A stretch of 61,607 nucleotides of DNA, from positions 1 through 61,607 of IMG/VR virus record IMGVR_UViG_3300008448_000080, one strand, 5' to 3'. The stretch comes from a virus. The translations under genes were made by a program, and so were the position numbers. Each line of letters begins with the position of its first letter. Positions within the stretch are counted from its first letter, which is position 1. Below are positions 6,249 to 22,324 of this stretch, in pieces. The notes beneath the pieces are model-generated. The model saw nothing but the letters and a program-made list of their open reading frames with translations, was not told where the DNA came from and made no database searches.

Positions 6249-6258
6249 GCGGGGCTCC

Positions 6259-8709
6259 TCAGAACGGGGGTGCGTTCTTCTTGTTGGGCTGATGCGGCTC
6301 CAGTTCGTTCTGCTGGGCCTCCACCTTGGGCCACTGGAACGGTCCGCCCATGTTCCGGTCCCAGAACTCCCGGACCTCCGACAGGGAGGGTAGGTGGTAC
6401 ACATACACCCGCTTCTTGATCAGGACCTCGAAGCCGTGCTCATTGATCCAGGGCACGTCCATCATCTCCTGACGTGAGAGGAGCTTGTTGGGCGGGAAGG
6501 CCCGGGACATGAACTTGCCGAAGCCGGTGAGGGACATCCGGAAGTTGCGGCCCTGGTCTTTCAGGTCGTTGATGTAGTCCTGGTACAGGCTTTCCTTCAC
6601 CACGCGGCCCTTCCAGTCCTGGTCGGTCTTGAGCATCCGGCCTTCCCACAGCTTTTCGTACATCCACTGCGTCTCCGGGGCCATGCTCATAATCTTCTGG
6701 TCCTGCAGGGCGTCCGTCTGGGGGACCTGGCGAACCTCGAAGGCGCTCAGGTCATAGGTCATCAGGTAGTGCAGCAAGTTCTCTAACCCGCCATCGTCCA
6801 GTTCGTCCTTGATGCGCTTGAAATAGCCGTGATCTTGCTTCTTCCCGTCCCCCACCTCCATGACAAAGAACCGGCGTTCATCCAGGCCAGCGGGCACCAC
6901 CCAGTCCTCGTTGGACGCCAGAATCAAGTGGACGTAGTTGGGCGCGGCTTCCGCGTCCACGCCCTTGCCTTCGATGACCAGGTGCTCCTCCGTGATCAGG
7001 GTCTTGAGCACTGACTCGTGCTTCTTGTCCCCGGCGAAGAATGCCTCATCACCGAACAGCAGGACCGTGTCCCGGAGGTGGGCGTTGAAGGAGCCCACGA
7101 GGTGCTTCGAGTCCGACACCTGCAGGTAATGACGCCCAAACATCGCACCGAGAATCTTGGCAAAGAAGGACTTGCCCGTGCCCCGCTTCCCGCGAAGAAC
7201 CACGGCCACTTCCCCGGGTCCGTCCGGGTGCTGAATCATTCGAGCCATCCAGCCCACAAGGTACTGGAAGTGCTCCGGGTTCCCGGAGCAGACGTTGTCG
7301 CGCACGTGGAGCAGAAAGGACTCGTGCTTGCTCCCCGGGAGGGAGTTGCACGCGAAGCCCCGCCAGAGGTTGTAGGCGTCCTCCGTCTCCCGGCCCGGGG
7401 CGAACAGGATTGTCTCATATTGGCGGCGCTTCGGGTGATCAATCCAGAAGGCTCCTGCGGCCTTCTCGATGGGCTGACCGTTGTCCGAGTGCCCAACCAC
7501 TACCTTGATGTGGCGGTAGCGGTTCCGGAAGTCCTCGAAGGACTGCTTGCTGATCTTGGTCCGGTTCAGGGACAGGTCCATCACCTCCGAGATAATGCGG
7601 CACTTGCCCCCGATGTCGCTGATCACGGCGTGCTTCTCGTTGAGCATCCGCAGCATGGGGTCAACGGCCTCCTCCTGCGCACGTTCGATCTGGCGCAGTG
7701 CATAGCCCTCCCAGTTCGGTTTATCGCGCACGCTGGTGGCGATTTCGTTGGAGCCGGTGATCACCGCAAATATCATCTCCGGCGGTACGTCCGCCCGGAC
7801 CAGATCACAGCAAACTCTGAACAGGGCTTCGGAGCGGGAGGCGTACTTGGTGGGGTCCAGCGGGTCCTGCCCAGTAGCAATCAGCGCCAGCGTGTGGTCA
7901 CTGATCGCCTTGTTGTGTTCCTGGGCCCATTCCTTCAGTTCGTCCGTCCCGATGTCCGGGACGTTGCCCGTGATCTTCACCTTCGGACGGCCTCCGCCCG
8001 CCAGCCCCTGCTCAGACATCTGAACACGGGGGGCGGGGGTGAATTGTTCAATCGGGTAACTGACGTTGTTCCACTCGATCAGGACGGCCAGCGCGGGCCA
8101 ACGGCCCTTCTTGCGCTTCTTGAGCGTGGGCATGTTGATCGTGCCCGGGAGGCGCATGATGCGGTCCACGTTGTGGCAGTGGTCCGCCTGAAACACCTTC
8201 TCCAGCTGGATGTTGTACGCTTCCAGCTCCTGGGCCTTGGCAATGCTGCCGTTGATCTCCAACTTCTCCGAAGGCGACAGCCTCCAAAAGCCCTGAAAGC
8301 CACCGCCGGAGTCCACGATGGCCGTGGGCTTGGGGGTGTAGTTCTGAAGCATCTTCAGGGCGCGTGTTCGCTCCTCCTCGATTTCCTCCCCGGCACGCGG
8401 GTCGATGTCCACGTGGAGCCATTCGAGTCGGGCGATGTCCTCCTTGGAGGCTTTCACGTCCATTGCCCGTCGAACCGGGTTGACGTGGAAGTACACGTTG
8501 CGCTTGCCCTGTTGTTCCTCAATCCACTCAGCGGCCTTCTGCCACTTGTCGGGGGTGAATGTCAGGGTTTCGGTCTTGCCGTCCGGGATGATCGCAGTGA
8601 GAACCCAAGGCCCCTCCGGGCACCACTTCTTCAAGAAGCTGATTGCAGCCTTCGTGTCGTGTTCCGGGAGGGGGCGGGGTTTCGTGAATTCTTCACCAAA
8701 ACGATTCAT
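6259..8709 (-). CDS. DNA primase-helicase (RepB-like primase + SF3-type helicase)
   Basis: The 816-residue replication protein starts at ATG 8709 in an ATGA overlap. The N-terminal third has primase signatures of the RepB/archaeo-eukaryotic type: EWLHVDIDPRAGEE (metal-binding DxD), PTAIVDSGGGFQGFWRL and NVDRIMRLPGTINMP. The C-terminal half is a D5/SF3-like helicase: Walker A GKRGTGKSFFAKIL, Walker B LLFGDEAFFAGD, sensor LILASNEDWVVPAGLDERRF with an Arg finger. It should lay primers and unwind DNA at the fork for the family A polymerase. Its position among polymerase, nuclease and helicase genes supports this. Confidence 0.9.
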   Translation of the reverse strand: MNRFGEEFTKPRPLPEHDTKAAISFLKKWCPEGPWVLTAIIPDGKTETLTFTPDKWQKAAEWIEEQQGKRNVYFHVNPVRRAMDVKASKEDIARLEWLHVDIDPRAGEEIEEERTRALKMLQNYTPKPTAIVDSGGGFQGFWRLSPSEKLEINGSIAKAQELEAYNIQLEKVFQADHCHNVDRIMRLPGTINMPTLKKRKKGRWPALAVLIEWNNVSYPIEQFTPAPRVQMSEQGLAGGGRPKVKITGNVPDIGTDELKEWAQEHNKAISDHTLALIATGQDPLDPTKYASRSEALFRVCCDLVRADVPPEMIFAVITGSNEIATSVRDKPNWEGYALRQIERAQEEAVDPMLRMLNEKHAVISDIGGKCRIISEVMDLSLNRTKISKQSFEDFRNRYRHIKVVVGHSDNGQPIEKAAGAFWIDHPKRRQYETILFAPGRETEDAYNLWRGFACNSLPGSKHESFLLHVRDNVCSGNPEHFQYLVGWMARMIQHPDGPGEVAVVLRGKRGTGKSFFAKILGAMFGRHYLQVSDSKHLVGSFNAHLRDTVLLFGDEAFFAGDKKHESVLKTLITEEHLVIEGKGVDAEAAPNYVHLILASNEDWVVPAGLDERRFFVMEVGDGKKQDHGYFKRIKDELDDGGLENLLHYLMTYDLSAFEVRQVPQTDALQDQKIMSMAPETQWMYEKLWEGRMLKTDQDWKGRVVKESLYQDYINDLKDQGRNFRMSLTGFGKFMSRAFPPNKLLSRQEMMDVPWINEHGFEVLIKKRVYVYHLPSLSEVREFWDRNMGGPFQWPKVEAQQNELEPHQPNKKNAPPF

Positions 8710-9038
8710 GCCTGGGTCTCCCAATAGCCCTTCAGGCGGTCAATGGAGGCTTCGCCCAACTCCATCTTCATGACCCACAGGCGGGTCATCCCGATAGCGG
8801 CTGCGACTTCCCGCTGAGTCATACCGGCGCGGCGGCGGCGCAGCAGGCAGACTTCGTGCGGCTTCATATGTCCCGCGTTGTAGTGCGGTACGTCCTCCGG
8901 GCGTTCGTCCGTCTCCCAGGCCCGGTAGGTGTCCACGTGCACTCCGTAGCGGGCAGCGGCCTGCAACTGGTTCTCCGCCTTGCGGCGGCGCTCCAGCAGT
9001 AGGCTTTCGCCCCGGGTCGGTTTCAGTTCAGCAGCCAT
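8706..9038 (-). CDS. XRE-like transcriptional regulator with two HTH regions
   Basis: The 110-residue basic protein starts at ATG 9038 behind GAGGAG. Residues about 14-45 (RRRKAENQLQAAARYGVHVD) and 68-100 (RRRRAGMTQREVAAAIGMTR) each look like a Cro/XRE helix-turn-helix, the second being the better match. It precedes the primase with an ATGA overlap. It may control early or replication genes, and the repeated promoters are possible targets, but no operator is assigned. Confidence 0.78.
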   Translation of the reverse strand: MAAELKPTRGESLLLERRRKAENQLQAAARYGVHVDTYRAWETDERPEDVPHYNAGHMKPHEVCLLRRRRAGMTQREVAAAIGMTRLWVMKMELGEASIDRLKGYWETQA

Positions 9039-9421
9039 GTACAAATCTCCTCAGTTTTGGGCTTGCGGGTCCATCGGGCCACGCATGCCGCGTAAAGTTT
9101 CTGTTGTTCGACTTGCCCAAGGACACCGGCGGCAACCGCCCCGTCGAACAACAACCATTCATTCTCCCCCACCTTCAGAAGGAGGAAGGCCCGCCCACCG
9201 GCGTGCCTTCGCTTCGTGAGCCAGACTTTTTGCTGTTGAGTGAAGTGGTCCACGCGGAGCGGTCCGCCCATCGGGGGCCACCGCTCCGCGTACTTCAATT
9301 CAATCCAGCCCCCGGTGTAGTTCACATCCGGGGTTCCGGGCACGATGGGGTTCTCAACCCGTACCGGGTCCAGCTTCTTCAGCATCGGTCGGATTGCGTC
9401 CCACATCGCGGCTTCAGACAT
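9023..9421 (-). CDS. VRR-NUC-like PD-(D/E)XK nuclease
   Basis: The 132-residue protein carries the nuclease core NPIVPGTPDVNYTGGWIELK: PD at residues 31-32, then the E-x-K pair in WIELKYAE. A following Gln-rich helix (FTQQQKVWLTK) is typical of VRR-NUC and phage Holliday-junction or flap nucleases. It overlaps the HTH gene by 16 bp and the deaminase by 8 bp. The likely role is processing recombination or replication intermediates. Confidence 0.83.
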   Translation of the reverse strand: MSEAAMWDAIRPMLKKLDPVRVENPIVPGTPDVNYTGGWIELKYAERWPPMGGPLRVDHFTQQQKVWLTKRRHAGGRAFLLLKVGENEWLLFDGAVAAGVLGQVEQQKLYAACVARWTRKPKTEEICTWLLN

Positions 9422-9878
9422 CTGCCCAGCTCACTTTCACGTTGTAGCGGCGGGCGATTTCCAACGATTGGTCAATCAACCCATTCCACTGGTCCACCCA
9501 CTTCGGGTCCCGGCCCTCGAATTGGATGGGCGGGAACACGACACGGGTCACTCCGGCCTTCGCGGCAGCTTCCAAGCAGTTCGGGCAGCAGGGAAAAGAA
9601 GTATAGAACGTGAACCTCTGTGCAGTCTCCCCCTCAAGGAACTTCAGCGCGTTGATTTCAGCGTGAACCACGTGTTGGTACTTGTACTCACGATCAGCGT
9701 ACAGCTCCGGGTGATCATCGTGCCCCGGCGGGAAGCCGTTGAACCCGGTGGACGCCACGGAGTTGTTTGGACGGACCAGGACGGCCCCCACCTTCGTGGA
9801 CGGGTCCTTGCTCCAAGTGGCCACTTCCTTCGCCAGCGCGATGTAGCGGCGGTCCCACTTCGCTTGGCGCGTGCTCAC
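9414..9878 (-). CDS. dCMP deaminase
   Basis: The 154-residue protein has the zinc deaminase motifs HAEIN (catalytic Glu, residues 73-77) and PCCPNC (zinc ligands, about 96-101), plus the N-terminal STKVGAVLVRPNNSVASTGF block of deoxycytidylate deaminases. It converts dCMP to dUMP, the substrate of the thymidylate-synthase-like enzyme encoded further along the module. It therefore probably feeds 5-hydroxymethyl-dUMP synthesis. The start at 9878 overlaps the methyltransferase stop. Confidence 0.92.
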   Translation of the reverse strand: MSTRQAKWDRRYIALAKEVATWSKDPSTKVGAVLVRPNNSVASTGFNGFPPGHDDHPELYADREYKYQHVVHAEINALKFLEGETAQRFTFYTSFPCCPNCLEAAAKAGVTRVVFPPIQFEGRDPKWVDQWNGLIDQSLEIARRYNVKVSWADV

Positions 9879-10717
9879 AGCAACTCCTTCTTAAGGGTTT
9901 GTATGCGATCAGGAACCAATTCGGAATACTCCGGATTCAATTCAATTATCAGTGAATCCCTGCCCAAGGCTTCTGCCACTCCTGCGACAGTGCCGGAGCC
10001 CCCAAAGGGGTCCAAGATAATTCCTCCTTTTGGACTACCTGCAAGGATTGCCGGAAGGACTAGCCCGGCGGGGAATGTTGCAAAATGACCTCCCTTGTAG
10101 GGCTTGGCAGCCAATTCCCAAACGCTTCTGCGGTTTCTTCTTGAAACCCCATTGCGAGCAGGCTCCTGAAAGGCATCATAGTCAAAATAGTACCGCTCCG
10201 ACTTGCTGAACATGAAAAGATACTCATGAGCTTTTGTTGCGCGGTCTTTGACACTTTCCGGCATAGGGTTGGGCTTGGACCAGATTATGTCTTGTCTAAG
10301 ATACCAACCATCGTCAGATAGGGCCAGGGCCAGGCGCCAAGGTATGCCCAGCAGTTCCTTCGGCTTCGCTGTTGGGTCAGTGGGCCTCACCCAATCTTTT
10401 TGTAGGGCAGAGGCTCGCAACGTCTGTTGTTTTAAGCCCTGTGTTGCCCCGTGACCTTTTCTTCCAGCAGCGTTGTAGCTGTCTGCTATGTTGAGCCACA
10501 AAGTTCCGGCGGGCTTTAATACCCGGCGGACTTCGCGGAAAACTTCAACCATGCCCGCCACGTACTCCTCACGGTTTGTTTCCAGTCCCATTTGACGGTC
10601 ATTTCCGTAGTCTCTCAACCCAAAGTAGGGGGGAGAGGTAACGACGCAATCCACGTGATTGTCGGGAACGGTTTTCAGAATGTCCCTACAGTCCCCGATC
10701 AGCAGAGAATAGCTCAT
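9875..10717 (-). CDS. DNA methyltransferase (TSPPY, N4-cytosine/N6-adenine type)
   Basis: The 280-residue enzyme starts MSYSLLIGDCRDIL at ATG 10717 (GAAGGG upstream, ATGA overlap). The catalytic motif TSPPYFGLRDYG (about residues 27-38) precedes the SAM-binding motif LDPFGGSGTVAGVAEALGR near the C-terminus, which is the beta-class order; TSPPY is typical of N4-cytosine enzymes. No partner restriction gene is present, so it is probably a protective orphan methyltransferase. Its DNA is visibly richer in A and T than its neighbours, which suggests recent acquisition. Confidence 0.88.
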   Translation of the reverse strand: MSYSLLIGDCRDILKTVPDNHVDCVVTSPPYFGLRDYGNDRQMGLETNREEYVAGMVEVFREVRRVLKPAGTLWLNIADSYNAAGRKGHGATQGLKQQTLRASALQKDWVRPTDPTAKPKELLGIPWRLALALSDDGWYLRQDIIWSKPNPMPESVKDRATKAHEYLFMFSKSERYYFDYDAFQEPARNGVSRRNRRSVWELAAKPYKGGHFATFPAGLVLPAILAGSPKGGIILDPFGGSGTVAGVAEALGRDSLIIELNPEYSELVPDRIQTLKKELL

Positions 10718-10911
10718 ATCAAGCCCTTCTCGTTGGCAATCCACTCCGTCACCGTCAGGGTCACCGACTTCGGACCCTTCACCACGTTGCGGACCTGTGA
10801 CTTGGGCATCCAGATTTCGGCCTCACCCCCGTGGTCGATCAGCAGGGCCTTCTCCGTCTCCCGCTTCACCACGCACTCGATTTCTACGGTGTTCTCGTTG
10901 CTAGTTCTCAT
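10714..10911 (-). CDS. Hypothetical small beta-rich protein, 65 aa
   Basis: The 65-residue product (ETEKALLIDHGGEAEIWMPK in the middle, VTLTVTEWIANEKG near the end) has alternating hydrophobic residues that suggest a small beta barrel. Such single-domain proteins are common in phages, but no function is established that I know of. It overlaps the GIY-YIG gene and the methyltransferase by 4 bp each. Confidence 0.72.
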   Translation of the reverse strand: MRTSNENTVEIECVVKRETEKALLIDHGGEAEIWMPKSQVRNVVKGPKSVTLTVTEWIANEKGLI

Positions 10912-11456
10912 TTAACGCTCCTTCTAAGTCTTGCTGTTTCAAGTTTTGCCAGCATCCGCTGGCGGTATTCGGGGTCAGCCCACTGTCGCTGTGCGCTTTC
11001 GCGGCGCTTCTCCCGATAGGCGTCTGAGTTGTAACCCGCATTGGGGTCCTTCCTCAGTCGCTTATGGGTTTCACTTTGTTTCTGACGGTACTCCGGTTGA
11101 TTGAATCCTGACCCGGGGTCTGCCCAGACGGACTTCCGGGCGGCGCTCAAGACACCCCGTGTTTCTTCCGAAGGTACAATGCCCTCACCCCCAGCGGTCA
11201 GGTTGTACCCGTGAGGGTCCATGGTCCCTCGTTCCCGGATGTGATGGGCCTCCCGTTCATTCAACATCTCCGTACAACATACCTCAATCACCTCGAAGCG
11301 GAAGGCCCCCACCCCGTGCTTACCCAAGGCGGCGTTCAGCTTTGGGCAACTGGAGCCCAAGCGGTGATCGTTCCACCGCTTCTCAATGTTCCGAGATTGC
11401 CCCACGTAGGCTTTCCCGGAATCACGGTGGGTGATCAGGTAGATGCCGCAGGTCAT
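10908..11456 (-). CDS. GIY-YIG homing endonuclease with NUMOD3-type repeats
   Basis: The 182-residue protein has the GIY...YVG core (CGIYLITHRDSGKAYVGQS) and the Arg/His helix NIEKRWNDHR. The catalytic Glu lies in LNEREAHHIRERG, followed by PHGYNLTAGGEG. The C-terminal half has short NUMOD3-like DNA-binding repeats (AARKSVWADPGSG, RQKQSETHKRL, REKRRESAQRQ). It is free-standing and overlaps the polymerase stop by 4 bp. No intron is seen in the polymerase frame. It belongs with the GIY-YIG genes at 43.7 and 54.3 kb. Confidence 0.9.
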   Translation of the reverse strand: MTCGIYLITHRDSGKAYVGQSRNIEKRWNDHRLGSSCPKLNAALGKHGVGAFRFEVIEVCCTEMLNEREAHHIRERGTMDPHGYNLTAGGEGIVPSEETRGVLSAARKSVWADPGSGFNQPEYRQKQSETHKRLRKDPNAGYNSDAYREKRRESAQRQWADPEYRQRMLAKLETARLRRSVK

Positions 11457-13426
11457 CCCTCAAACCCCATGGAATGTCCCCAGCTTCTCCCCACCTCCAC
11501 GTCAACTTTTGAAGGAAGTTCGAGGGGCGTGCAGGTACGCATGATGTGGGCGGCTTGTTCGGCTTCCTCCTTCGACTTCACGCTGAATGCGATCTCATCG
11601 TGGACCTGAATGATGATGTCGAACCCGGCGGCATCGCAGGCCACCATTGCCATCTTCGTCTGATCAGCGGAGGAGCCCTGGATCAGGCGGTTCAGGCCCT
11701 TGTGCGTCCAGTCGAAGTTCCCGTCATTGTCCTTCGGGAAGCGGCAGCGGCGTCCGGAGACGGTGACGATGTGGCCCACGGCCTTCGCACGGGCTTCGCA
11801 AGCCTTCGCCAGCTTCTTGATGAAGGGCACCTTGCGGTCGAACGTGTCCAGGAGGGCCTGACCCTCCGGCCCAGCGGCTTCCCACCGGCGGGCTCCCTGC
11901 TCCGCCAACCGGATACCCTCCGGGCTGTTCGCGTCGAAGGTCTGGCCCCGGGGTCCGCGCACCGCCATCATCGTGGGCAGGCCCAGCTTCCGGCACATCT
12001 TCGCCCCGCCCATACCGTAGGACAGGCCCAGGTAAATCTCCTTGGCGTCCTTGCGCTTGATGCCGGCCATATCCGCCATCATCTGGTGGTTGTCAGTCGT
12101 GGGGTCATCCCGGTAGCGGTCCCGGGCTTCAATCGCCTTCTCCCAGGCGTTCTGCCCAATCAGGTCCCGGGCCAGCGCGGCATAGTGCACCGCCATCCGG
12201 GGCTCCTGCTGCGAATAGTCGTTGGACGCCCACATCTCACCCTCCTCCGGGAGGTAGATGGCACGCCACATCGTTGCGAACTCATCGCGGGCGGGCTGCT
12301 GCTGGAGGTTCGGGTGCTCGCAGGACAACCGGCCATAAGCGGCCCCGGCGGTCCCGTCTGCCTCATCGTCCTTTTGACGGCGGAGTTGGTTGAAGGTACA
12401 GTGGAGCCGTCCGTTGATCAGGTGGTCCCGGACGGACTGCCCGAAGGTCGTGCGCAGCTTGTTCACCTTCCGGGCACGTTCCAGGGCATGGGCCACCGGG
12501 TGGTCGATGCCCGCCAGCAGTTCCTTGTCGATGTTGGGCTTGCCCTGGGAGGTCTTTTTGAGCTTGATGCCAATATATTCAAGGGCGGGCGCAATCGTCT
12601 CCGGCTTCCAGACATCGCCCACGTTCACGCGAACTCCGGTGTGGTGATGAACCGCCTTCAGGGCTTCCGTCTCCTGGGCCAGCGCCCACTTCTCAATCAT
12701 GTCCAGTCGGTCCAGGTCAATCCGGACGCCCCGGCGGCGCAGCTTCGTCAGCACCGGGAGCAGGCGGGACTCCAGGTCATAGACGCCCCAAAGGTTCTGC
12801 TCATCAATCTCCCGCTCCTGACGGCGGAGGATGTTCAGCGGCAGGCGGGTGTCCTCCTCCGCGTAGGGCCCAACGAACCGGGCGGGCAGCTTCCACATGT
12901 CCTTCTTCGGGTCAATCTTGTAGTCCAGCGCGGCTTCCTTGAGCAGCTGCTCATTCTTGCCGTCGAAGCCCCAACGGGAGGCAATCGACTGCATGCTGTA
13001 GCTGTCATACAACTCGCAAATCAGCGGGTCCGCAATCTGGATGTCCCGGAAGAAGCGGGCGGACTTGTACTCAATGCCGTCCCCGGCCAGGTAGTCCAAG
13101 TCATACGGGAGGTTGGCCCCCACGATGTCGCCCTTGAACACGGCGGCTTGATCGCGGAGGTAGCGCAGCACTTGATCCACGGGGAGGTTGTCCCCGCCTT
13201 CGTGTCGCATCGGCAGGTAGAACCCCGGCCCGTCCTCAATCGTGAAGCTCACCCCGGTGATGTAGCTGTTCGGGCGGCGTCCCGCTCCGGGTCCGAGTTT
13301 GCGCAGGTCCGGGTCCCGGGTTTCGCAGTCCACGGCGATGCGCTTGGCGTCCGCCCAAGAGGGCAGCGTGTTCAGCTCCGGCGGCTTCCAGTTGCTGTGG
13401 GCGGTCATGAACAGAGGTTGTTGCAT
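11453..13426 (-). CDS. DNA polymerase, family A with 3'-5' exonuclease
   Basis: The 657-residue replicative polymerase starts at ATG 13426, seven bases after AGGAGG, in preference to the TTG just before it. Exonuclease motifs are AVDCETRD (about 32-39), GANLPYDLDYL (104-114) and YAEEDT. Polymerase motif A is NDYSQQEPRM (about 403), motif B is RKDAKEIYLGLSYG (about 459) and motif C is IQVHDEIAF (about 608). The O-helix position equivalent to E. coli Phe762 is Tyr, as in T7. No 5'-nuclease domain is present. The enzyme must copy a probably hypermodified template, and the GIY-YIG gene directly follows it. Confidence 0.96.
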   Translation of the reverse strand: MQQPLFMTAHSNWKPPELNTLPSWADAKRIAVDCETRDPDLRKLGPGAGRRPNSYITGVSFTIEDGPGFYLPMRHEGGDNLPVDQVLRYLRDQAAVFKGDIVGANLPYDLDYLAGDGIEYKSARFFRDIQIADPLICELYDSYSMQSIASRWGFDGKNEQLLKEAALDYKIDPKKDMWKLPARFVGPYAEEDTRLPLNILRRQEREIDEQNLWGVYDLESRLLPVLTKLRRRGVRIDLDRLDMIEKWALAQETEALKAVHHHTGVRVNVGDVWKPETIAPALEYIGIKLKKTSQGKPNIDKELLAGIDHPVAHALERARKVNKLRTTFGQSVRDHLINGRLHCTFNQLRRQKDDEADGTAGAAYGRLSCEHPNLQQQPARDEFATMWRAIYLPEEGEMWASNDYSQQEPRMAVHYAALARDLIGQNAWEKAIEARDRYRDDPTTDNHQMMADMAGIKRKDAKEIYLGLSYGMGGAKMCRKLGLPTMMAVRGPRGQTFDANSPEGIRLAEQGARRWEAAGPEGQALLDTFDRKVPFIKKLAKACEARAKAVGHIVTVSGRRCRFPKDNDGNFDWTHKGLNRLIQGSSADQTKMAMVACDAAGFDIIIQVHDEIAFSVKSKEEAEQAAHIMRTCTPLELPSKVDVEVGRSWGHSMGFEG

Positions 13427-13809: not shown

Positions 13810-14005
13810 CGTTCAGCTCCTTGGTAAGTTCTCGAACCCGGCGGACTTGGGCCTGGTACAGGTAGGCCAGCGGCCCTCCGTCCGGGCTCATCAGGTATTT
13901 GTGCGCCTTGAGCAGGTGGTCCGCAAGGTCCTCCACCCGCTCATGGGCGCAGTAGCTCAGGCAGGGGTCCTCCGCCCAATCACGCTCCAGCTTGCGCAAG
14001 TCCAT
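13778..14005 (-). CDS. Hypothetical helical protein, 75 aa
   Basis: The protein starts MDLRKLERDWAEDPCLSYCA and ends with a charged helix (RRVRELTKELNDERERK). It overlaps the HD gene by 26 bp and the DUF3310 gene by 32 bp, which is unusually dense even for this genome. Two Cys in PCLSYC could bind metal. The function is unknown. Confidence 0.62.
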   Translation of the reverse strand: MDLRKLERDWAEDPCLSYCAHERVEDLADHLLKAHKYLMSPDGGPLAYLYQAQVRRVRELTKELNDERERKTSGR

Positions 14006-14612
14006 CGGCAACTTCCTCGAAGAAGTCGGACAGGCGCTTGTGAGGGGCGTTGCGCAATGCTGCGTAGAGCTGCGCGGCAATCGCGGGCAGGCTACCCTCC
14101 AGCTGGCGCTTCTCCGTCACCTTCTCGCATGCGCGGCGCATCGGCGTGACGGCGGCGTTGCCCAGGGCTTCTTCCTCCCGGCACCACAGCCACAGTTCGA
14201 GGGTGTCCACGGCCTTCAACCACGCTTGTTCGAGTTCCGTGAGTTCCGGGAACAGGCCCAGGCGCTTCAGCAGCTCCGTCTCCGCCCGCTCATAGACTTC
14301 GCCCAGCTCCGTGTTGTCCCACTTCGCGGGGGCGGGTACGTCCCCCAACCAGCGTTCCGCCACGTCATGCCACTGGACGGCCTTGATCAGCTTCAGGGAG
14401 GGCTTCGGGTGAAGCAACAGCAGGAGGCTCACCGCCCCGTAGCTGTGTTGGGCGATGTTGTACTGACCGTGGTGAGGGACGATATGACACCGGCGGACGG
14501 TCCCGGCTTCCCGGGTAGCTGCGAGGCGCGTCAGAAGCGGGCGCTGAACCCGCTCCCGGGCAGCTTCCGCTTCCACTTCCTCGTCACGGATTCTGGATGC
14601 TATGCTGCCCAT
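13980..14612 (-). CDS. HD-domain 5'-deoxynucleotidase (YfbR-like)
   Basis: The 210-residue protein starts at ATG 14612, correctly spaced from AGGAG; the GTG at 14618 is too close to that site. The metal motif set is present: CHIVPHHGQYNIAQHSYGA (first His) and KAVQWHDVAERWLGDVPAP (HD pair, about residue 83), with the distal Asp in KAVDTLELWLW. YfbR-type enzymes hydrolyse deoxynucleoside monophosphates. In modified-base phages such enzymes help remove the competing canonical nucleotide. It sits immediately after the hydroxymethylase gene. Confidence 0.82.
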   Translation of the reverse strand: MGSIASRIRDEEVEAEAARERVQRPLLTRLAATREAGTVRRCHIVPHHGQYNIAQHSYGAVSLLLLLHPKPSLKLIKAVQWHDVAERWLGDVPAPAKWDNTELGEVYERAETELLKRLGLFPELTELEQAWLKAVDTLELWLWCREEEALGNAAVTPMRRACEKVTEKRQLEGSLPAIAAQLYAALRNAPHKRLSDFFEEVADGLAQAGA

Positions 14613-14614
14613 GA

Positions 14615-15667
14615 TCACGCTCCTGTACCGTAGTCCACGCCATCGTCCTGCGCACGGGCCTTGCGGGCTTCGTGCGCGGCGCGGCGGCGCTCAATCCACT
14701 CGATTGCGGCCAACCTCCAATCGGAAGCGGCCACCCGTCCGAGGGCGTCCATTGCCCCGTCGAAGTCCTTGGCCTTGTAGGCGGCGTGAGCCTGAGACAT
14801 CGGGATGGCCACCTTGCGGAAGAAGGGGTCACGGAAGCCCAAGGCATCCGGCTCCTCCATGAACATCTTCAGCTCCGCGTCCCACTCCTCCCGGGGCAAC
14901 GACATCAGCGGGAAGGGCTCCACCGCTTCGGCAGCATACGGGTCCGGGGTGGGCGCTCCGGTCAGGGGGTCCGGGGCGTAGTCTGCCAACGGGGAAACCT
15001 TCGCCAGCACGTCCTTGTAGGCGTGAAAGTTCGCGGACACTTGACGGTACACGCCCTGCGGGACGCCCACGGAGCGGGCCACGTACTCGTGGAGGTAGCT
15101 GAAGTGCACGGCGTTGGCACCGTAGGCTCCCCACACCAGATCGTTCGAGCGGTTGGTGACCATCATGTCCAGGCGTCCGTCCGATGAGACTTGAAACACG
15201 GCCTGAAGGTTGCACGGGAGGTCCTTGCCAGAGCGGCCCAAGTCAGCATCCGCGTCCCACATCGACAGGACCTGGCGGCGGTCATCCGGGTTCGCCTTCA
15301 GGGCGTTGATGATCTTGGGCAATTGGTCATCGAAGAAGAAGTTGCGCCAGCGGAAGCCGTAAGCCCCGTGGAACACCTTGCCATCGTCCGAGTAGGTGCG
15401 CATGCGCTCCACGTAGCGGGCCACGAACTCCACATCACGGCGTCCCGCCAGCATCCAGAGGCTTTCCACCAGGTGGAAGAACGGGTTGCAATCCCGCTCC
15501 GCCCAGAACATCACCCGCTCCGCAGGGCGGAGGTACACCGTGGTCACCGGCTCCGGGAACATGCGCACGGGACCGTTGCGGCTTTCACGCTCCACGCCTT
15601 CGTTGTTGAGCTGATACAAGGCTTCGGGAAGGGCCTGTTGTACGTTGCGTGCTTTGATGACTTTCAT
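14615..15667 (-). CDS. Thymidylate synthase-like dUMP hydroxymethylase
   Basis: The 350-residue protein has the thymidylate-synthase fold: Cys nucleophile in KDLPCNLQAVFQV, phosphate-binding DDRRQVLSMWD, and the substrate loop NRSNDLVWGAYGANAVHFSY. The residue after the catalytic Cys is Asn rather than the His of true thymidylate synthase, as in hydroxymethylases. An Asn in the substrate loop favours dUMP over dCMP. The predicted product is 5-hydroxymethyl-dUMP, the precursor for DNA containing 5-hydroxymethyluracil. It is the last gene of the modification cassette and overlaps its neighbour with ATGA. Confidence 0.85.
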   Translation of the reverse strand: MKVIKARNVQQALPEALYQLNNEGVERESRNGPVRMFPEPVTTVYLRPAERVMFWAERDCNPFFHLVESLWMLAGRRDVEFVARYVERMRTYSDDGKVFHGAYGFRWRNFFFDDQLPKIINALKANPDDRRQVLSMWDADADLGRSGKDLPCNLQAVFQVSSDGRLDMMVTNRSNDLVWGAYGANAVHFSYLHEYVARSVGVPQGVYRQVSANFHAYKDVLAKVSPLADYAPDPLTGAPTPDPYAAEAVEPFPLMSLPREEWDAELKMFMEEPDALGFRDPFFRKVAIPMSQAHAAYKAKDFDGAMDALGRVAASDWRLAAIEWIERRRAAHEARKARAQDDGVDYGTGA

Positions 15668-16224
15668 TTCGCTTCCTTGAAGGACAAGCCCAGGCGGGCG
15701 TTCAGGTCTTTGATCGGCAGGGCGGGCAAGTACCGGCCTGTGTCGGTTTGTTGAAACTGCTTCACGAAGGGTTCGACCTCCGGCCAGACTTCGATCAGCT
15801 TCTTGACCGTGGTCACGCTGCCCAGGATGGCTTGGGCGGAGGACTTCGCACCGGACTTCTCCAGGCTCAGGGCGTCCTTTGCCTTGCGGAAGGCGGCGTG
15901 ACGAACGGACAACGGGTGCTTGTCGTCATAGACCCGGGCGGCGTTGGCTTGGTGGGCGCAGGACAGCATCCGGTTCTCACCGAAGTACACGCGGGTGAAG
16001 TCTCCCCCGAAGGACACGCACACGTCATCGTCCACGGGAAGGAAGCCGGAGGGCAGGGCCTTCATTTTCTTCTGAACGTCCTCCGGGTACAGGTCCTGGT
16101 ACACGGCGTCACCCAGGGCGAACCATTCCTTGTCCAGTGCCTTTTCGCGTTCATCGAAGGCGTGCGAGAGGAGGCTGCTGATCACAGTCTCCTTGATGTA
16201 GTTGCTCAAGCGTACAGTTGCCAT
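15664..16224 (-). CDS. Nmad5-like protein (nucleotide modification-associated domain)
   Basis: The 186-residue protein starts MATVRLSNYIKETVISSLLS behind GGGAG. Its length, the N-terminal helix followed by DAVYQDLYPEDVQKKMKALP and PSGFLPVDDDVCVSFGG, and its place inside a hypermodification cassette match the Nmad5 family defined from such cassettes. No catalytic residues are established for the family that I know of. It overlaps the hydroxymethylase start by 4 bp, so it is probably needed in the same pathway, perhaps in control or nucleotide handling. Confidence 0.68.
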   Translation of the reverse strand: MATVRLSNYIKETVISSLLSHAFDEREKALDKEWFALGDAVYQDLYPEDVQKKMKALPSGFLPVDDDVCVSFGGDFTRVYFGENRMLSCAHQANAARVYDDKHPLSVRHAAFRKAKDALSLEKSGAKSSAQAILGSVTTVKKLIEVWPEVEPFVKQFQQTDTGRYLPALPIKDLNARLGLSFKEAK

Positions 16225-16237
16225 TTCAATTCTCCCG

Positions 16238-17194
16238 TTAAATCTTGGTTGCCTTGCGCCAGTCATACTTGCTGCGCATCTTGCCTTCGCCCAGCTTCAC
16301 CCGTTCGTACTTGTCGAACTCGCAAAGGCAGTGCTCAATGTCGCGCATCTCGAAGCGGGGGAACGTATCCTCACCACCATCCAGACGCGGCCCGAAGGTC
16401 TGCGTGAATCCCGGCTCCGCCCAGTCGTTCAGATCGTTCATCAAGTCGAACATCTCCCGGTTGGTCACTTCCGGCTTCGGCTTCGCTCCGAGGTCCCGCC
16501 CGTGGAGGCGGTTCAGCCCCCGAATAGCTCCCGGACCGGCGTTGGCCCATGAGTAAATGTCCGGGGCTTCGTTCAGGTAGCGGGTGTGGCGGAGGTCCGT
16601 GACCACTTCATAGGCCATGAACGGTCCCCAACCGATGTAGCGGGGCTCCTGAAACACCTTCCAGACCTGCTCCAGGGAGGCTTGGCGCTTGCCTTCAAGG
16701 ACTTCCACGAAGGCGGCACGGTCCTCCCACAGACGCCCAATCACGATTTCCGCGATGTAGCGGTGCTTGCTCCAGCTGTACCACTCCTTGGACTGATCGG
16801 ACTCCGCCCTGATCATGTACGCTCCGGTGTACACCTTGTCCCCGAAGGATGCCTTGGCTGCGAGGACTTCCGAGACGTTCGAGGGCGTGAAGTCCTCGTG
16901 GCTGGGCCAGGCCCCGGGCGCTTCGATCAACGTGGCCAGGGTATCGGGCCAATTGATATAGCGGGCCAACGCCAGCATGAGCCAAAGGTGTTCGTGTCCG
17001 GCGTAAGGCTTGCGGATGTTCTCCTCAATCCAGATCGTCACGGTGTCCAGTTCGCGGAACACGTTGCAGAAGCGGCCCCCGGCCAGGATGGGGTCAGCCG
17101 TCCAGGGTCCGGGTTGACCGGCCTTGCGCTTCAGGTAGATGTCGTGCCGCTCCTTGATGAAGGCGGCGAACTCGTCAATGCGAGGAGTTGTCAT
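16238..17194 (-). CDS. 5-hmdU DNA kinase helical-domain protein
   Basis: The 318-residue, mostly helical protein starts MTTPRIDEFAAFIKERHDIY. The N-terminal block (AGQPGPWTADPIL, then GGRFCNVFRELDTVTIWIEE) is characteristic of the HMUDK_hel family, which is either fused to or encoded beside the P-loop 5-hmdU DNA kinase; here the kinase is the adjacent upstream gene. The middle (EPRYIGWGPFMAYEVVTDLR, then ANAGPGAIRGLNRLHGR) resembles a helix-hairpin-helix glycosylase-like DNA-binding fold. It probably binds and presents 5-hydroxymethyluracil in duplex DNA to the kinase. The longer upstream frame is shadow. Confidence 0.8.
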   Translation of the reverse strand: MTTPRIDEFAAFIKERHDIYLKRKAGQPGPWTADPILAGGRFCNVFRELDTVTIWIEENIRKPYAGHEHLWLMLALARYINWPDTLATLIEAPGAWPSHEDFTPSNVSEVLAAKASFGDKVYTGAYMIRAESDQSKEWYSWSKHRYIAEIVIGRLWEDRAAFVEVLEGKRQASLEQVWKVFQEPRYIGWGPFMAYEVVTDLRHTRYLNEAPDIYSWANAGPGAIRGLNRLHGRDLGAKPKPEVTNREMFDLMNDLNDWAEPGFTQTFGPRLDGGEDTFPRFEMRDIEHCLCEFDKYERVKLGEGKMRSKYDWRKATKI

Positions 17195-17207
17195 GATGGT
17201 CAATTCC

Positions 17208-17762
17208 TCAGATGATTGCGAGAAGGGCGGCGCGGGCGTCCTGCCACGGAAGGTCCAGCACGGTTTCCTTGTCGGCCAGGGCCTTGTCGCGGACCCGGGC
17301 GATGGTGCGGTGCTTGTCAGCCACCTGGTCCTCCTTGATGGGCTTGCCTCCGTTGCGCACCTGGATGCGTTCAAGGCAGGTCTGGAGCGGAGTGTCCAGG
17401 AATGCCCAAGTCATCCCTCCGTTGGCTTTCGACCACTCCTGCCACGGTCCGTAGATGGTACTGACCACCACGCCCTCGAACAGGACGGCCTTCACCTCCG
17501 GGTCCTTGCCCACGAACTCAACCACGGCCTTCGCGGCGGCTTGGGTCTTGATGCGGTCCAGGCCAGCGGTGGTAGAACCGGCGGCGGCGGGCGTGTAGTC
17601 CCCGATGATGGCGATGCCGCCGGGGCAGTAGGTGACCGGGATGGGCTTGTGGAGTTCGCCCATGTTCACGTTCGAGACGCGGCACAGGGGGTCGGTTGCG
17701 AGGCTTCGCAACAGGGTAGTCTTGCCGGAGCCGTTACAGCCCCGCACGTTGATGTATTTCAT
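17208..17762 (-). CDS. 5-hydroxymethyluracil DNA kinase (P-loop, 5-HMUDK)
   Basis: The 184-residue P-loop kinase starts MKYINVRGCNGSGKTTLLRS, so the Walker A motif lies at residues 8-16. VKAVLFEGVVVSTIYGPWQE gives the Walker B/substrate region and MTWAFLDTPLQTCLERIQVR the lid/base. This architecture matches kinases that phosphorylate or pyrophosphorylate the hydroxymethyl group of 5-hmU within phage DNA. The start at 17762 follows the CAGAAACGGAG leader and a strong hairpin at 17,791-17,812. Neighbours on both sides are hypermodification genes. Confidence 0.85.
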   Translation of the reverse strand: MKYINVRGCNGSGKTTLLRSLATDPLCRVSNVNMGELHKPIPVTYCPGGIAIIGDYTPAAAGSTTAGLDRIKTQAAAKAVVEFVGKDPEVKAVLFEGVVVSTIYGPWQEWSKANGGMTWAFLDTPLQTCLERIQVRNGGKPIKEDQVADKHRTIARVRDKALADKETVLDLPWQDARAALLAII

Positions 17763-17790
17763 CTTGGTTCTCCGTTTCTGAGTTGAATGT

Positions 17791-17812
17791 GGGCGGAGCC
17801 GGAGCCCCGCCC
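17791..17812 (-). terminator. GC-rich hairpin (attenuator-like) before 5-HMUDK
   Basis: The minus-strand RNA would form GGGCGG(G)GC-UCCG-GC(U)CCGCCC with no U-tract after it. It lies between the radical SAM stop and the kinase leader. A hairpin differing by one loop base occurs at 45,450-45,471. It probably partly terminates or stabilises the upstream message. Confidence 0.55.
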
Positions 17813-17819
17813 GGGGGAC

Positions 17820-19286
17820 TTACTGCTGGACCACCACCTTGATGGCTTCCAGCTTCTTCTTGATGCGGTCAGGCTGATCAGCGTCAGGCCCAGCCACGTA
17901 CTTGAAGTCAGGGGCGCGAAGGGCGCGGGCGGCTCCGAACACTTCCGAGCCGCAACGGCCCTTCAGCTTGTCTTCCGGTTTCGCATCGTCCGGTGCGCAA
18001 TACAAACAGCCCGAAGGGGCGCAGGCTTTCACCTCCTCGAAGTTCTCTGACAGGTCCTTCCGCGTGAACATCGGAACCTTCTGGCCGTGGCACTGATCGG
18101 CGGTCGTGAACTGACGGCCCACGCTTTGCCAACCACCTCCGCCTTCGCCCTTCGCGTACTCATAGCACGTGGCGTAAGTCATGCCCAGTTCGGTGGCCCA
18201 CTTCTGGTACATCGCATGAGCCTCCAAGCGGTAGGCTTGGGCAATCGTGCGCTGCGCACCGGCCTGGTTCTCCGTGAACAGGGCTTGGAACTTCCCGGCC
18301 CGCTCCGCTCCGAACCGCTTGTGAAGGCGCTCCACCATCGCGGGAGCCCAGCTGTAACCGGCCTCCACGAACTTGACGATGACGTGGTTGTTGCCGACTT
18401 CCGCCAGACGCTCAAACAACCGGCGGATGTCCTCGTGGGAGGTAATCCCGGGCACCACCGGATTCACCTGAATCGAAGTGTAGATGCCTTGGTTGCGCAG
18501 CTCACGGATTTCGTCCAGGTGCGCCTGAAGGGAGATAGCCCCGGGCGACAACTTGTGCCAGTCCGCATCGTTGCCCGTGTTCAAGGACTTCTGGGCATAG
18601 CTGAAGGGGTTTTGCTTCAGAAGGTCGAAGGCCCAATCAGGGTAGTGGAGGCGGGACAGGAAGAACACCGGCAGGCCCAAGCGCACGAACTCCTCCGCAC
18701 CGCGTTGGGTGTTGTGGTACACCTCCTCAATCGGCAGGAACGGGTCCGTGAAGCTGGAGAAGTAACCGGCGGCGGAGGTGTGGACCTTGGACAGCTGGTT
18801 GCGGACCTGCTCCCCGTAGTTCATCGGCACGCTGATCAGGCCAGAGCCCCGATAACCCCGGAACCCGCTGTTGACATAGCAGAAGGCGCAACCCACGGTG
18901 CAATACCCGCCATAAGGCTCCGTCAGGATAGCTTCCGAGAAGCAAGGACGCGGACGGCTCCCCTGCTTGTCGTTGTGCTTGTCCTGGTACCAACCTTGCA
19001 GCGGCTTCGCGTTCGGAATGCGCAGGTGCGGCACGTAGGTCTTGTCATTGAATCCGAGGTACACCTTGACCTCCTTCTTGGACTCATCGGGGGCGTTGCG
19101 GACCATGCCAACCTTCGCCATGCGGAACTTCGCACGCATGCCGGTCAGCGGGTCATCCTCCTCCTCGATTGGGCCCAGGAACTCACGCTGGTTCGGGTCC
19201 GGGCGCATGAAATACTTGTAAGCCTCCTGGGCTTCTTCGCCTGTGTTCTCCTCCAGCCATTTGCTGTGGTCGTGTTCGCTTTGCAT
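17820..19286 (-). CDS. Radical SAM enzyme of thymidine hypermodification
   Basis: The 488-residue protein starts MQSEHDHSKWLEENTGEEAQ at ATG 19286, 20-odd bases downstream of a promoter. The cluster motif GYCTVGCAFCYVNSG is CxxxCxxC, supplying the three Cys ligands of the 4Fe-4S cluster. Later Cys groups (KACAPSGCLYCAPDD near the C-terminus) may bind further iron or zinc. In phage M6 the equivalent enzyme isomerises N-alpha-glycinyl-thymidine to its C-alpha-linked form in DNA. The same role is inferred here from the surrounding transferase, PLP enzyme and kinase genes. Confidence 0.82.
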   Translation of the reverse strand: MQSEHDHSKWLEENTGEEAQEAYKYFMRPDPNQREFLGPIEEEDDPLTGMRAKFRMAKVGMVRNAPDESKKEVKVYLGFNDKTYVPHLRIPNAKPLQGWYQDKHNDKQGSRPRPCFSEAILTEPYGGYCTVGCAFCYVNSGFRGYRGSGLISVPMNYGEQVRNQLSKVHTSAAGYFSSFTDPFLPIEEVYHNTQRGAEEFVRLGLPVFFLSRLHYPDWAFDLLKQNPFSYAQKSLNTGNDADWHKLSPGAISLQAHLDEIRELRNQGIYTSIQVNPVVPGITSHEDIRRLFERLAEVGNNHVIVKFVEAGYSWAPAMVERLHKRFGAERAGKFQALFTENQAGAQRTIAQAYRLEAHAMYQKWATELGMTYATCYEYAKGEGGGGWQSVGRQFTTADQCHGQKVPMFTRKDLSENFEEVKACAPSGCLYCAPDDAKPEDKLKGRCGSEVFGAARALRAPDFKYVAGPDADQPDRIKKKLEAIKVVVQQ

Positions 19287-19314
19287 CGTCTGATTCTCCG
19301 GTAGTGTGTGAAAA

Positions 19315-19343
19315 AGTATAGGGGGTGAGGGGGAAGAAGTAAA
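19315..19343 (-). promoter_or_regulatory. Sigma70-type promoter, TTTACT-17-TATACT
   Basis: TTTACT (19343-19338) and TATACT (19320-19315) are 17 bp apart on the minus strand. The copy gives a very short leader before the radical SAM gene with CCGGAG as ribosome-binding site. It splits the hypermodification cassette into two transcription units. Confidence 0.78.
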
Positions 19344-19352
19344 GTGAACCAA

Positions 19353-19511
19353 TCATTTATCGTTTGGCTCCTCCCGCTTCTTCCGCCAGCGTTCTTTGGC
19401 GGCTTCGGACATCTTCCGCCGGTGCTCCTCCGTGAACACGCGGCCCTTCATGCGTTCGGAGTGCTCCCGGCGCTGGGCTTCGTCCCGGGGGCGTCCCTTC
19501 GGATAGCCCAT
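19353..19511 (-). CDS. Orphan NUMOD3-like DNA-binding fragment, 52 aa
   Basis: The small basic protein MGYPKGRPRDEAQRREHSER continues with MKGRVFTEEHRRKMSEAAKE, the repeat typical of the C-terminal NUMOD3 part of GIY-YIG homing endonucleases. No catalytic domain is attached. It starts 4 bp after the PLP-enzyme stop and ends just before a promoter. It may be a remnant of a homing endonuclease or a stand-alone DNA-binding peptide. A similar block occurs in the 43.7-kb GIY-YIG gene (RFTEEHRLKLSQAAKARPAM). Confidence 0.7.
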   Translation of the reverse strand: MGYPKGRPRDEAQRREHSERMKGRVFTEEHRRKMSEAAKERWRKKREEPNDK

Positions 19512-19515
19512 GGCG

Positions 19516-20355
19516 TCAGTCCCCAATGTTCCAGAACACGATGGGCTTGTGAGCCAACGGCTCCAAGTTCTCCGGCTGTTGAAGCCAGTTCCACGCCTTC
19601 TGGTCATAGTAGGGGTTGCACGGGAACGGAACGGACACGCTGCTGGGCGCGGCGTCAGCGTAGTTGTAGCCCTCATCCACGAAGCGGACCCGCTCCGTCA
19701 GCTGAATCCCGGCGGCACGTTCGATGTATGCGCGGGTGGAGTCCTGACTGCGGGAGTACCCCATGTTGAGAATGACGTCATACCCGTCCAGGATACCGGC
19801 CTGCTTGAAGCCCAGGAGGACCCCGGCGGCAACCGTCCCGGAGCTGATGGACAGAATCAGGGTGCCTTCGCCCGGGAGGTCCGGGGCGGTGCGCAGGGCT
19901 TCTGCGGCGTTCTCCGTGATCGACTCCGGCAGCTTCAGGGCGTTGGGCATCAGGTAGCCGTTCTGGTAGCCCTCCATCAGGCGCTTGCGCGCTCCGTGGT
20001 ACAGGACTGCGGAGCGGCCCGCCGGAAGGTCCACCAGGTCCGCTCCGAGCTGGCGGGCACGCTGCTGCTGAATGCGCGGGGCGTCCGCGTTCCCGTCCTT
20101 CTTGTAGCGGGGCCAGAAGTCCACGCACTTGCGTCCGAGGTGGTTGCAAACGTAGGCCACCGCGTGTCCGGCCTTCGAGTGGTACGTGTCCAGGACCCCG
20201 ATGACCTGCTCAGGGCGGTTCTTGATATGGGCCACCACCCCGCGTATCTTGCTGAAGGACGGACCGGGCAGCGGGGCGCAAAGGTCCTCACGCTTGACGA
20301 TGACGGAGACGCCCCGGAGGTCGTGGACTTCGAGCGGTGTGTTGTTGACGATCAT
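19516..20355 (-). CDS. PLP-dependent enzyme of thymidine hypermodification
   Basis: The 279-residue protein starts [40 protein letters not shown] contains the likely Schiff-base Lys (SKIRG, about residue 36) of fold-type II PLP enzymes such as D-cysteine desulfhydrase. [20 protein letters not shown] is the Gly/Ser-rich phosphate-binding loop. In M6-type pathways a PLP enzyme decarboxylates the amino acid already attached to the thymine, giving an aminoethyl group. The ATG at 20355 overlaps the transferase stop (ATGA). The long N-terminal extension in this frame is shadow. Confidence 0.8.
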
Positions 20356-21230
20356 GATTGCTCCTTGGGCATGTGGTGGAGGAAGGCGCGGGCGGCGGGG
20401 CACGAAGCGGCCCAGGGTTCGAGTCCGGTGTTGATCTCCCGGATGTCGTTCCAGATCGGGTAGTGACCATTCATGTGCGACTTCCACTTGCACAGAACCG
20501 TCTCCACCTCCTGGATGTTGATTGGGCGGTCGGACAGGGGCGGGGCTTCGAGGTCCCGGAAGTGCCCAATCAGGTACTCCGCCACCCCGTTCAGGATGAC
20601 CTCCCGCTTGGGCTTCGCGTTCTCCGGGTACTTGTGGCCCTGACGGAGCTGCCACAGCACCATCGCGGCCTTCTCCGGGTCCTTGAACATGAACACGGCG
20701 GCGTTGTCGAAGTCCACCGGGACCTCCATCACGCGGTCCATCATGTCCGCAATCTTGAACCCAATCCATGGTCCGAAGCCGTTGTGCTCCTGAGCACGCT
20801 GCGAGACGGTCCGGAAGGGCAGGCGCTCATCCTCCGTTGCCCTTGCGCCCACGTACAGGGCGAAGTTCTCCGGGCGGTCCCCGTACCGCTTCTGGAGGGA
20901 CGATACAGAGTTGACCGCAATTGCTGCGCGGAAGTGGCGGCGCTCATGTCCCCGTGGCCATCGTCCGCCCACGGGGGTTTCGTTCGCGTTCTCCGCTGCG
21001 ATCATCATCCAGTGCCAGAACTCCTCCCCCTCCTTCTCGCTGAGGAAGGACGCAACGGCGGCGCTGTAGTAACACCAATATGCGACCATCCAGCGGCAGA
21101 GCTGGGGGATGGAGAAGTCACCGGCCTTCTCCGCCTTCACCAAGGCGATGTAAATGGGGTCCAGGTCCCCGGAGGTGATCAGTTGTCGCCCAAAGGACTC
21201 GATGTCCAGGCGTGGGTAGTTTCTGCTCAT
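20352..21230 (-). CDS. Amino acid:DNA transferase (AADT/aGPT-Pplase2-like)
   Basis: The 292-residue helical protein has the N-terminal block [17 protein letters not shown] and [20 protein letters not shown], then [17 protein letters not shown] and [18 protein letters not shown], which match the glycosylase-like alpha-glutamyl/putrescinyl thymine transferase family. Such enzymes displace the (pyro)phosphate on 5-phosphomethyl-dU in DNA with an amine or amino acid, glycine in M6. It is the first gene of the cassette's upstream half. The ribosome-binding site before ATG 21230 is weak. Confidence 0.82.
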
Positions 21231-21240
21231 TGTACAAGTC

Positions 21241-21504
21241 TCACAAGAATGATTTGCTAATTTTCCCGCTCAGGTCCTTCAGGATTTCCCAATCTGAGAA
21301 TTGGGCACTGAAGGAAGGACTCATGCGGACTTCTTTGTTCACATGAATACGGGAGTGGACGGTGAGCCACTTGCTGTCCCCGTCCTCCGTGATCACAACG
21401 TGAATCCAGGGCGGGAGCTTTGAGGGCTCCATCCTGTACCCACGTTCTGCCGGATACTCAACCCGGCAGAGCAGGTAGTCATAGGTGCGCTCAACAGCGG
21501 CCAT
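21241..21504 (-). CDS. Hypothetical protein, 87 aa
   Basis: The product starts [23 protein letters not shown] 21504 is favoured over GTG 21510 because GAGG lies at better distance. Alternating hydrophobic residues ([20 protein letters not shown]) suggest a beta-sheet protein. The C-terminal part is less GC-rich. No family is recognised. It lies between the DUF3489-like protein and the transferase and is probably co-transcribed from the 22.2-kb promoter. Confidence 0.7.
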
Positions 21505-21511
21505 AGCCACC

Positions 21512-22177: not shown

Positions 22178-22206
22178 GATGAGCTCCATTTCTGAGGGTT
22201 GAGTTC

Positions 22207-22264
22207 CGGTCCGTTTCGTTCGACCGTGAGAAGAAGTATAGTGCCATTCTTGCGAAAAAGTAAA
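22207..22264 (-). promoter_or_regulatory. Promoter TTTACT-18-TATACT with hairpin leader
   Basis: TTTACT lies at 22264-22259 and TATACT at 22240-22235, 18 bp apart. The leader then forms CGGTC-GAACGAAACG-GACCG (22226-22207) before CAGAAATGGAGC and the ATG at 22177. The copy at 27,332-27,364 is almost identical in this leader. The cluster lies in a 147-bp gap that holds nothing else I recognise. Confidence 0.82.
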
Positions 22265-22324
22265 GTGGACGGCAAAATAATTTCTGGCTCACGGTCGAAC
22301 CAGGCCCCGGAGGGCCTTCAGGCG

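Follow-up and report, generated by a model that had tools for sequence, protein, structure and literature searches.

The locus at 14615-21230 of the window (the whole 61,607-base stretch of viral DNA analysed) is very probably a thymidine-hypermodification cassette of the kind carried by Pseudomonas phage M6, with 5-aminoethyl-dU (5-NedU) as its predicted product. As the alignments of related genomes read, one of its genes, encoding the Nmad5 protein, has a body that is exchanged as a block between otherwise near-identical phages. By its sequence the source virus is a relative of M6, the record being about 80% identical to Yuavirus genomes (BL8, AN14 and M6 among them) across most of an 18-kb query stretch. 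A preliminary description of this DNA had named seven cassette genes here, and all seven are present as open genes of one direction in a single operon-like run on the minus strand, with family matches and with M6 orthologues in the same order (Table 1). The description left out the adjacent HD-domain phosphatase gene, which is likewise conserved in M6.

Table 1. Genes of the cassette and its immediate neighbours, with E-values of family matches and protein identities to M6 (reference DQ163916, a 20-kb stretch).
Position	Strand	Feature	Family matches	Identity to M6	Further features
13980..14618	-	HD-domain 5'-deoxynucleotidase-like phosphatase	YfbR-like 5e-8; PHROG 6047 2e-77	75%	H, HD, D residues present
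14615..15667	-	Thymidylate-synthase-family dUMP 5-hydroxymethylase	Pfam Thymidylat_synt 5e-20	77%	
15664..16224	-	Nmad5 protein, exchangeable cassette gene	PF18757 7e-34	44% (M6 allele)	59-62% to allele A
16238..17194	-	HMUDK helical protein (aGPT-Pplase1), partner of 5-hmdU DNA kinase	PF18723 (HMUDK_hel) 7e-55	69%	
17208..17762	-	5-hmdU DNA kinase	PF18748 (HMUDK_HMUD1) 1e-18	83%	Walker A GCNGSGKTT
17820..19286	-	Radical SAM enzyme (predicted glycyl-thymidine isomerase)	PHROG 9252 4e-284	78%	CTVGCAFC
19353..19511	-	Short basic ORF, possible homing endonuclease remnant	Longer 107-aa frame: weak PHROG homing-endonuclease match 1e-4		
19516..20355	-	PLP enzyme, PALP family (predicted decarboxylase)	PALP 3e-10; PHROG 7093 1e-128	73%	
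20352..21230	-	Amino acid:DNA transferase (AADT; predicted glycyl transfer step)	ADDT 9e-46	86%	
21241..21510	-	DUF7300 protein, neighbour conserved in M6	PF23974 4e-25	86%	

Read in the direction of transcription (21230 to 13980), the genes encode the AADT, the PLP enzyme, the short basic ORF, the radical SAM enzyme, the kinase, the helical protein, Nmad5, the hydroxymethylase and the HD phosphatase. Within the run, adjacent genes either share a few bases or are separated by no more than about 60, the sole larger spacing being the gap of about 230 bases between the PLP and radical SAM genes, which the short ORF fills. This ORF is possibly what is left of a homing endonuclease gene: a Pfam scan of 19353-19508 gave no match, and the same interval is occupied in relatives by an HNH endonuclease (PSP2) or a gene annotated as ‘endonuclease’ (PC1). 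Preferred starts were chosen from homologues for Nmad5 (16224), the helical protein (17194), the radical SAM enzyme (19286), whose open frame extends to 19352, and the PLP enzyme (20355). Judged by the curated Pfam cut-offs, six of the seven cassette proteins pass, the exception being the radical SAM enzyme (23.4 versus 29.5 bits), the identity of which is settled by PHROG 9252; Nmad5 itself belongs to its Pfam family with 118 bits against a cut-off of 27. The window contains no Rfam match at the gathering threshold, a tRNA search found none, and the DUF7300 protein next to the AADT gene has no match in IMG/VR locus L005, the closest relative found.

The preliminary description had left it to alignment whether active-site residues are missing, and the motifs examined, which were chosen from general knowledge of the families, are in place. 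Present are the catalytic cysteine and substrate loop of the hydroxymethylase (the cysteine, in DLPCNLQ, being conserved across the aligned relatives), the Walker A motif of the kinase, the CX3CX2C motif of the radical SAM enzyme, the lysine in PSFSKIRG and the SSGTVAAG glycine loop of the PLP enzyme, and the conserved stretches of the AADT and the helical protein. These motifs carry small substitutions in distant alignable relatives and are otherwise kept, while a second, C-terminal set of cysteines in the radical SAM enzyme recurs in all 14 of the aligned relatives with this gene. Among solved structures, the hydroxymethylase best matches the CMP 5-hydroxymethylase 5b6d (2e-17), and the AADT matches 25qc_A (8e-181) and the glycinyltransferase 8z2m (5e-93), the latter corresponding, as far as the alignment shows, to the sequence of PaMx11_46, to which the AADT is 52% identical. 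This match, together with ADDT family membership, places the AADT among the glycine-type transferases, with glycine as its predicted substrate. The helical, kinase, PLP and radical SAM proteins had no solved homologue by PDB sequence search at the thresholds used.

In the search against M6 homologues that the preliminary description had proposed, six of the seven cassette proteins are 69-86% identical to their counterparts and Nmad5 is the exception. With L005, Nmad5 shares 73% identity and the other cassette proteins 83-97%. Between M6 and PSP2 every cassette gene is 97-100% identical in DNA except that for Nmad5 (67%), where near-complete identity (~100%) extends over roughly the first ten codons, is followed by about 400 bases at 50-68%, and gives way at the end of the gene to two blocks with 60/60 and 50/60 identical positions. 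A wider comparison covered 17 named Yuavirus-type records (8 with allele A, 9 with allele B), hand-picked from 59 and including at least one partial wastewater genome (PSA20) and at least two records marked unverified (Pa-C, PaSz-9). The middle of Nmad5 is 55-60% identical in DNA in 72 of 72 different-allele pairs, in which the six flanking genes are 95.3-98.9% identical, and it is 93-100% identical in the 64 same-allele pairs; as the allele labels were set from the very stretch compared, what these figures really show is the lack of any pair between 60% and 93%.

Parsimony places 4 allele switches on a tree of the flanks, which is approximate, several of its inner nodes being weak. Shuffled allele labels required 5.9 switches on average and 4 or fewer in 105 of 1000 shuffles, so that allele and flanks are not clearly linked. 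The genes for Nmad5 in PSP2 and Bordetella phage CN1 share 90% DNA identity, with the other cassette genes at 77-81%, which points to transfer of Nmad5 between phage groups. Among the best 60 of 123 helical-protein matches, which count a phage twice when it has both a GenBank and a RefSeq record, 20 carry allele A and 39 carry allele B, the remaining one being Sonora (27% identity). A literature search, limited in extent and correspondingly weak as a statement, did not find exchange of Nmad5 alleles described.

The claim of the preliminary description that this gene set builds 5-NedU stands for the cassette as one of the M6 type, but Nmad5 is probably not to be counted among the building enzymes, because the cassette exists without Nmad5 and Nmad5 without the cassette. 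An essential role in the chemistry is difficult to reconcile with Rhizobium phage RHph_I65, which is given as a complete genome and has the hydroxymethylase, kinase, helical, AADT, radical SAM and PLP genes, with no Pfam Nmad5 in the genome. (A reading of RHph_I65 as lacking the PLP gene was rejected, a 47% match being found at 53.0-53.9 kb, across the start of the circular record.) Nor is there a Pfam Nmad5 in the whole record of PaMx11, which has a related cassette; both phages are among the 123 helical-protein records and were tested separately. The radical SAM gene occurs in 12 IMG/VR loci, four of which (L006, L009, L012, L015) stop before the Nmad5 slot and are not counted; EKU1 (L021), whose genes are fragmented in the record, was omitted. 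The slot is spanned in eight, and it holds Nmad5 in five (two being M6 and CN1 themselves, and with the distant protein of L014, 20% identical and over the Pfam cut-off, counted as Nmad5) and an endonuclease gene in three, of HNH type in L010 and L016 and of GIY-YIG type in L008. No Pfam Nmad5 was found in these three metagenome records, which are 56.6, 24.7 and 9.3 kb long for L010, L016 and L008, respectively, and possibly incomplete. The absence of Nmad5 from PC1, WP2, Pa-C and 185 was also considered and rejected, all four carrying the gene.

Nmad5 is also found away from the cassette. The phage genomes HK542, Alexa, Pan1 and vB_DshS-R5C all match PF18757 over the cut-off, and neither a thymidylate-synthase-family nor a helical gene was found in any of the four. 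Seven of 16 IMG/VR loci retrieved with the Nmad5 alignment lack HMUDK_hel, records which may be fragments; all 11 records without the helical gene were selected for having Nmad5. A weak 35-bit hydroxymethylase match was seen in the IMG/VR locus L036. Nmad5 is thereby neither present in every complete cassette nor confined to cassettes.

It could nevertheless be proposed that Nmad5 works in the modification machinery, for example as a DNA-binding factor that determines the choice or the number of thymines to be modified, with the two alleles giving different patterns. All of the best 60 of the 123 helical-protein matches (59 Yuavirus-type and Bordetella records and Sonora) carry Nmad5, it occupies its slot in the examined spanning cassette loci except L008, L010, L016, RHph_I65 and PaMx11, and it is called a DNA-modification gene in PMC9476957 and in passages of PMC11846954. 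Set against the full cassettes without Pfam Nmad5 in RHph_I65 and the 56.6-kb L010 contig, the related cassette of PaMx11 and the four genomes that have Nmad5 but neither a thymidylate-synthase-family gene nor one for the helical protein, this proposal appears unlikely, if worth keeping in view. The retention of Nmad5 throughout those best 60 matches argues that the protein matters where such a cassette occurs, and is compatible with its being dispensable for the chemistry yet useful to the phage. We regard Nmad5, with reasonable though not high assurance, as an accessory phage protein within the gene run that is not a step of 5-NedU chemistry and that has a body swapped between phages as one block.

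The predicted structure of Nmad5 (9 sequences; pLDDT 82.6, pTM 0.66) comprises two long helices with a beta hairpin between them, and has a confident body that corresponds approximately to the swapped part and a poorly predicted C-terminal end. A fold search of the model against the PDB gave no match (best E 1.7), and of 16 matches in a viral fold library at E<=0.001, five are named nucleotide-modification-associated and the others are unnamed, uncharacterised or numbered, so that the fold gives no function for Nmad5. Among its homologues outside the cassette, the HK542 gene lies directly after gene N and those of Pan1 and vB_DshS-R5C directly before an exonuclease gene, positions where phages place genes for early host takeover and for recombination.

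With moderate confidence, we propose that Nmad5 is a host-facing accessory protein that would have no enzyme activity. A more specific and tentative picture, which may well prove wrong, is that of a dimorphic host-facing protein in which a near-constant N-terminal tip and C-terminal tail act as anchors and the helix-hairpin-helix body is swapped. Such a block swap would be expected of a body that is sensed by host immunity or that counters it; if true, phages would pair a fixed chemical disguise of their DNA with a switchable protein. In this regard, passages of PMC11846954 report that a missense mutation in an E. coli Dhillonvirus gene called nmad5 leads to escape from Tmn immunity, that deletion of the gene gives no escape, and that its cloning failed, apparently through toxicity. 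This result serves as a lead only, because a PF18757 search of HK578, the only Dhillonvirus genome covered, gave nothing at E<=0.1. If the two proteins are related, the Yuavirus alleles would constitute a ready natural experiment. The genome comparisons thus set a gene that is annotated as one of DNA modification apart from the chemistry, and reveal two alleles of it among sequenced Pseudomonas phages.

For the cassette itself, the steps can be predicted from orthology to M6, in which the pathway reportedly proceeds by glycine addition, radical isomerisation and decarboxylation. The hydroxymethylase would form 5-hydroxymethyl-dUMP, which would be phosphorylated and then incorporated into DNA where some of the thymines would otherwise stand, and the kinase and its helical partner would phosphorylate hmdU in the DNA. 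Glycine would displace the phosphate by action of the AADT, the radical SAM enzyme would shift the bond from nitrogen to carbon, and decarboxylation by the PLP enzyme would yield 5-(2-aminoethyl)-dU. The HD phosphatase, possibly a cleaner of the dNMP pool for the modified-thymine pathway, may trim a competing nucleotide pool. The best prediction for the source virus is therefore 5-NedU at some of its thymines.

An intact cassette could also stop at an earlier intermediate (5-hmdU, N-glycyl- or C-glycyl-thymidine) if one late enzyme were inactive, which seems improbable given that the motifs checked are present, the frames are open and the radical SAM and PLP enzymes retain their similarity to M6. 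That the cassette is unused and the genome contains ordinary thymine is most improbable of all: no observation favours it, and eight adjacent genes of the cassette have open frames and have stayed conserved across long divergence.

The acetylated variant of the pathway was likewise considered. Like the M6 type, the window combines the dUMP hydroxymethylase with the 5-hmdU DNA kinase and its helical partner, and has a radical SAM and a PLP enzyme rather than those of the FAD route. Compared with the window, the Abidjanvirus PaMx11 has homologous but more distant proteins (hydroxymethylase 59%, HD phosphatase 57%, AADT 52%, helical protein 35%, kinase 26%). Over the stretch compared, neither the radical SAM nor the PLP protein has a match there, and PaMx11 carries an FAD oxidoreductase and an acetyltransferase, of which the window has no detectable counterparts. 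The preliminary description had seen no acetyltransferase gene, which is borne out by a search with PF00583 (no match at E<=1 across the 61,607-base record, with matches in 14 of 14 control genomes) and by tblastn with the PaMx11 acetyltransferase and FAD oxidoreductase (best only E 0.093). The pair of enzymes that marks the PaMx11-type acetylated pathway was thus not found in the window.

M6, in contrast, shares the gene set, order and strand of the cassette, and the PolA, RNR and dCMP deaminase of the window are also matched there. Apart from Nmad5, the differences noted lie outside the cassette: the window has a methylase and a GIY-YIG gene between dCMP deaminase and PolA that are unmatched in the 20-kb M6 stretch, and lacks an ORF found in AN14 between the HTH gene and RNR. 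Cassette order is as in the window in PSP2 and in Stenotrophomonas phage Bhz59, whereas Pam3 has the same cassette genes with the AADT moved. Passages of PMC6449724 report 5-NedU in M6 DNA, with TG or TC as the likely target of modification, and a block of 48.4% of the Type II restriction enzymes tested, because of which resistance to many nucleases may fairly be inferred for the source virus. The same seven-gene cassette has been described in the M6-like phage SN1 (PMC9476957), and a modification of M6 type is likewise deduced for phage Lydia in passages of PMC11946847. The M6-type reading of the preliminary description is hence upheld by orthology and synteny with M6, by the motifs, by searches that found no acetylation branch and by the gene list of SN1. 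Judged by its gene content, the cassette is a further case of this already known kind, and its six enzymes, 14-31% diverged from those of M6 with motifs kept, may help to map the residues that matter.

The C-terminal region of the radical SAM enzyme contains a C-x4-C-x2-C motif and one further cysteine (residues 444-469 in the 510-aa frame), and because this set is kept in 14/14 aligned relatives, the sequence suggests that the enzyme carries a second metal cluster. PHROGs and GenBank records name this enzyme 'DNA repair photolyase' and the 5-hmdU kinase 'terminase small subunit'; both names look misleading here.

Relatives recurrently carry an endonuclease gene in the gap between the PLP and radical SAM genes (annotated as HNH in PSP2, Pam3 and PAE1), whereas the window has just a short basic ORF there. 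In AN14, a gene annotated as a uracil-DNA glycosylase lies between the HTH gene and RNR, for which the window has no space, the corresponding gap being 135 bases. At phage PC1, large and small ribonucleotide reductase subunit genes are found, in contrast to a single reductase gene at the same place in WP2; this difference is a further module swap adjoining the cassette.

Coordinates of features in the window and in related records.
Record	Feature	Coordinates	Strand	Match
Window	DNA N4/N6 methylase	9875-10744	minus	PF01555 4e-50
Window	GIY-YIG endonuclease	10908-11456	minus	GIY-YIG 2e-11
Window	5-hmdU kinase	17208-17762	minus	
Window	Radical SAM enzyme	17820-19286	minus	
Window	Short basic ORF	19353-19511		
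Window	Gap between HTH gene and RNR	22190-22324		
L024	Endonuclease	5462-5842		
L047 (PC1)	Endonuclease	6582-6962		
L023	Endonuclease	8661-9020		
L054	Endonuclease	418-903		
L002 (AN14)	Annotated uracil-DNA glycosylase	12864-13370		
L047 (PC1)	Reductase subunits	589-3329		
L039	Cassette genes	4017-11877		
L014	Diverged Nmad5	8554-9051		

L039, an IMG/VR contig, encodes AADT, the kinase, the helical protein, Nmad5, the hydroxymethylase and the HD protein; no radical SAM match was found in the 17-kb stretch of it that was covered and no PLP match in its 53-kb record, and its pathway is perhaps a shorter one, ending at an earlier stage. A strongly diverged Nmad5, with ca. 20% identity to that of the window, occupies the same slot in L014, another IMG/VR locus. 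In the EKU1 record, the cassette genes are split over many pieces and frames, resembling an error-rich assembly.

Between the dCMP deaminase and PolA genes, the window carries methylase and GIY-YIG endonuclease genes, neither of which was matched in the 20-kb stretch of Pseudomonas phage M6 compared. The IMG/VR locus L010 has two distant methylases (27%) directly upstream of its own PolA.
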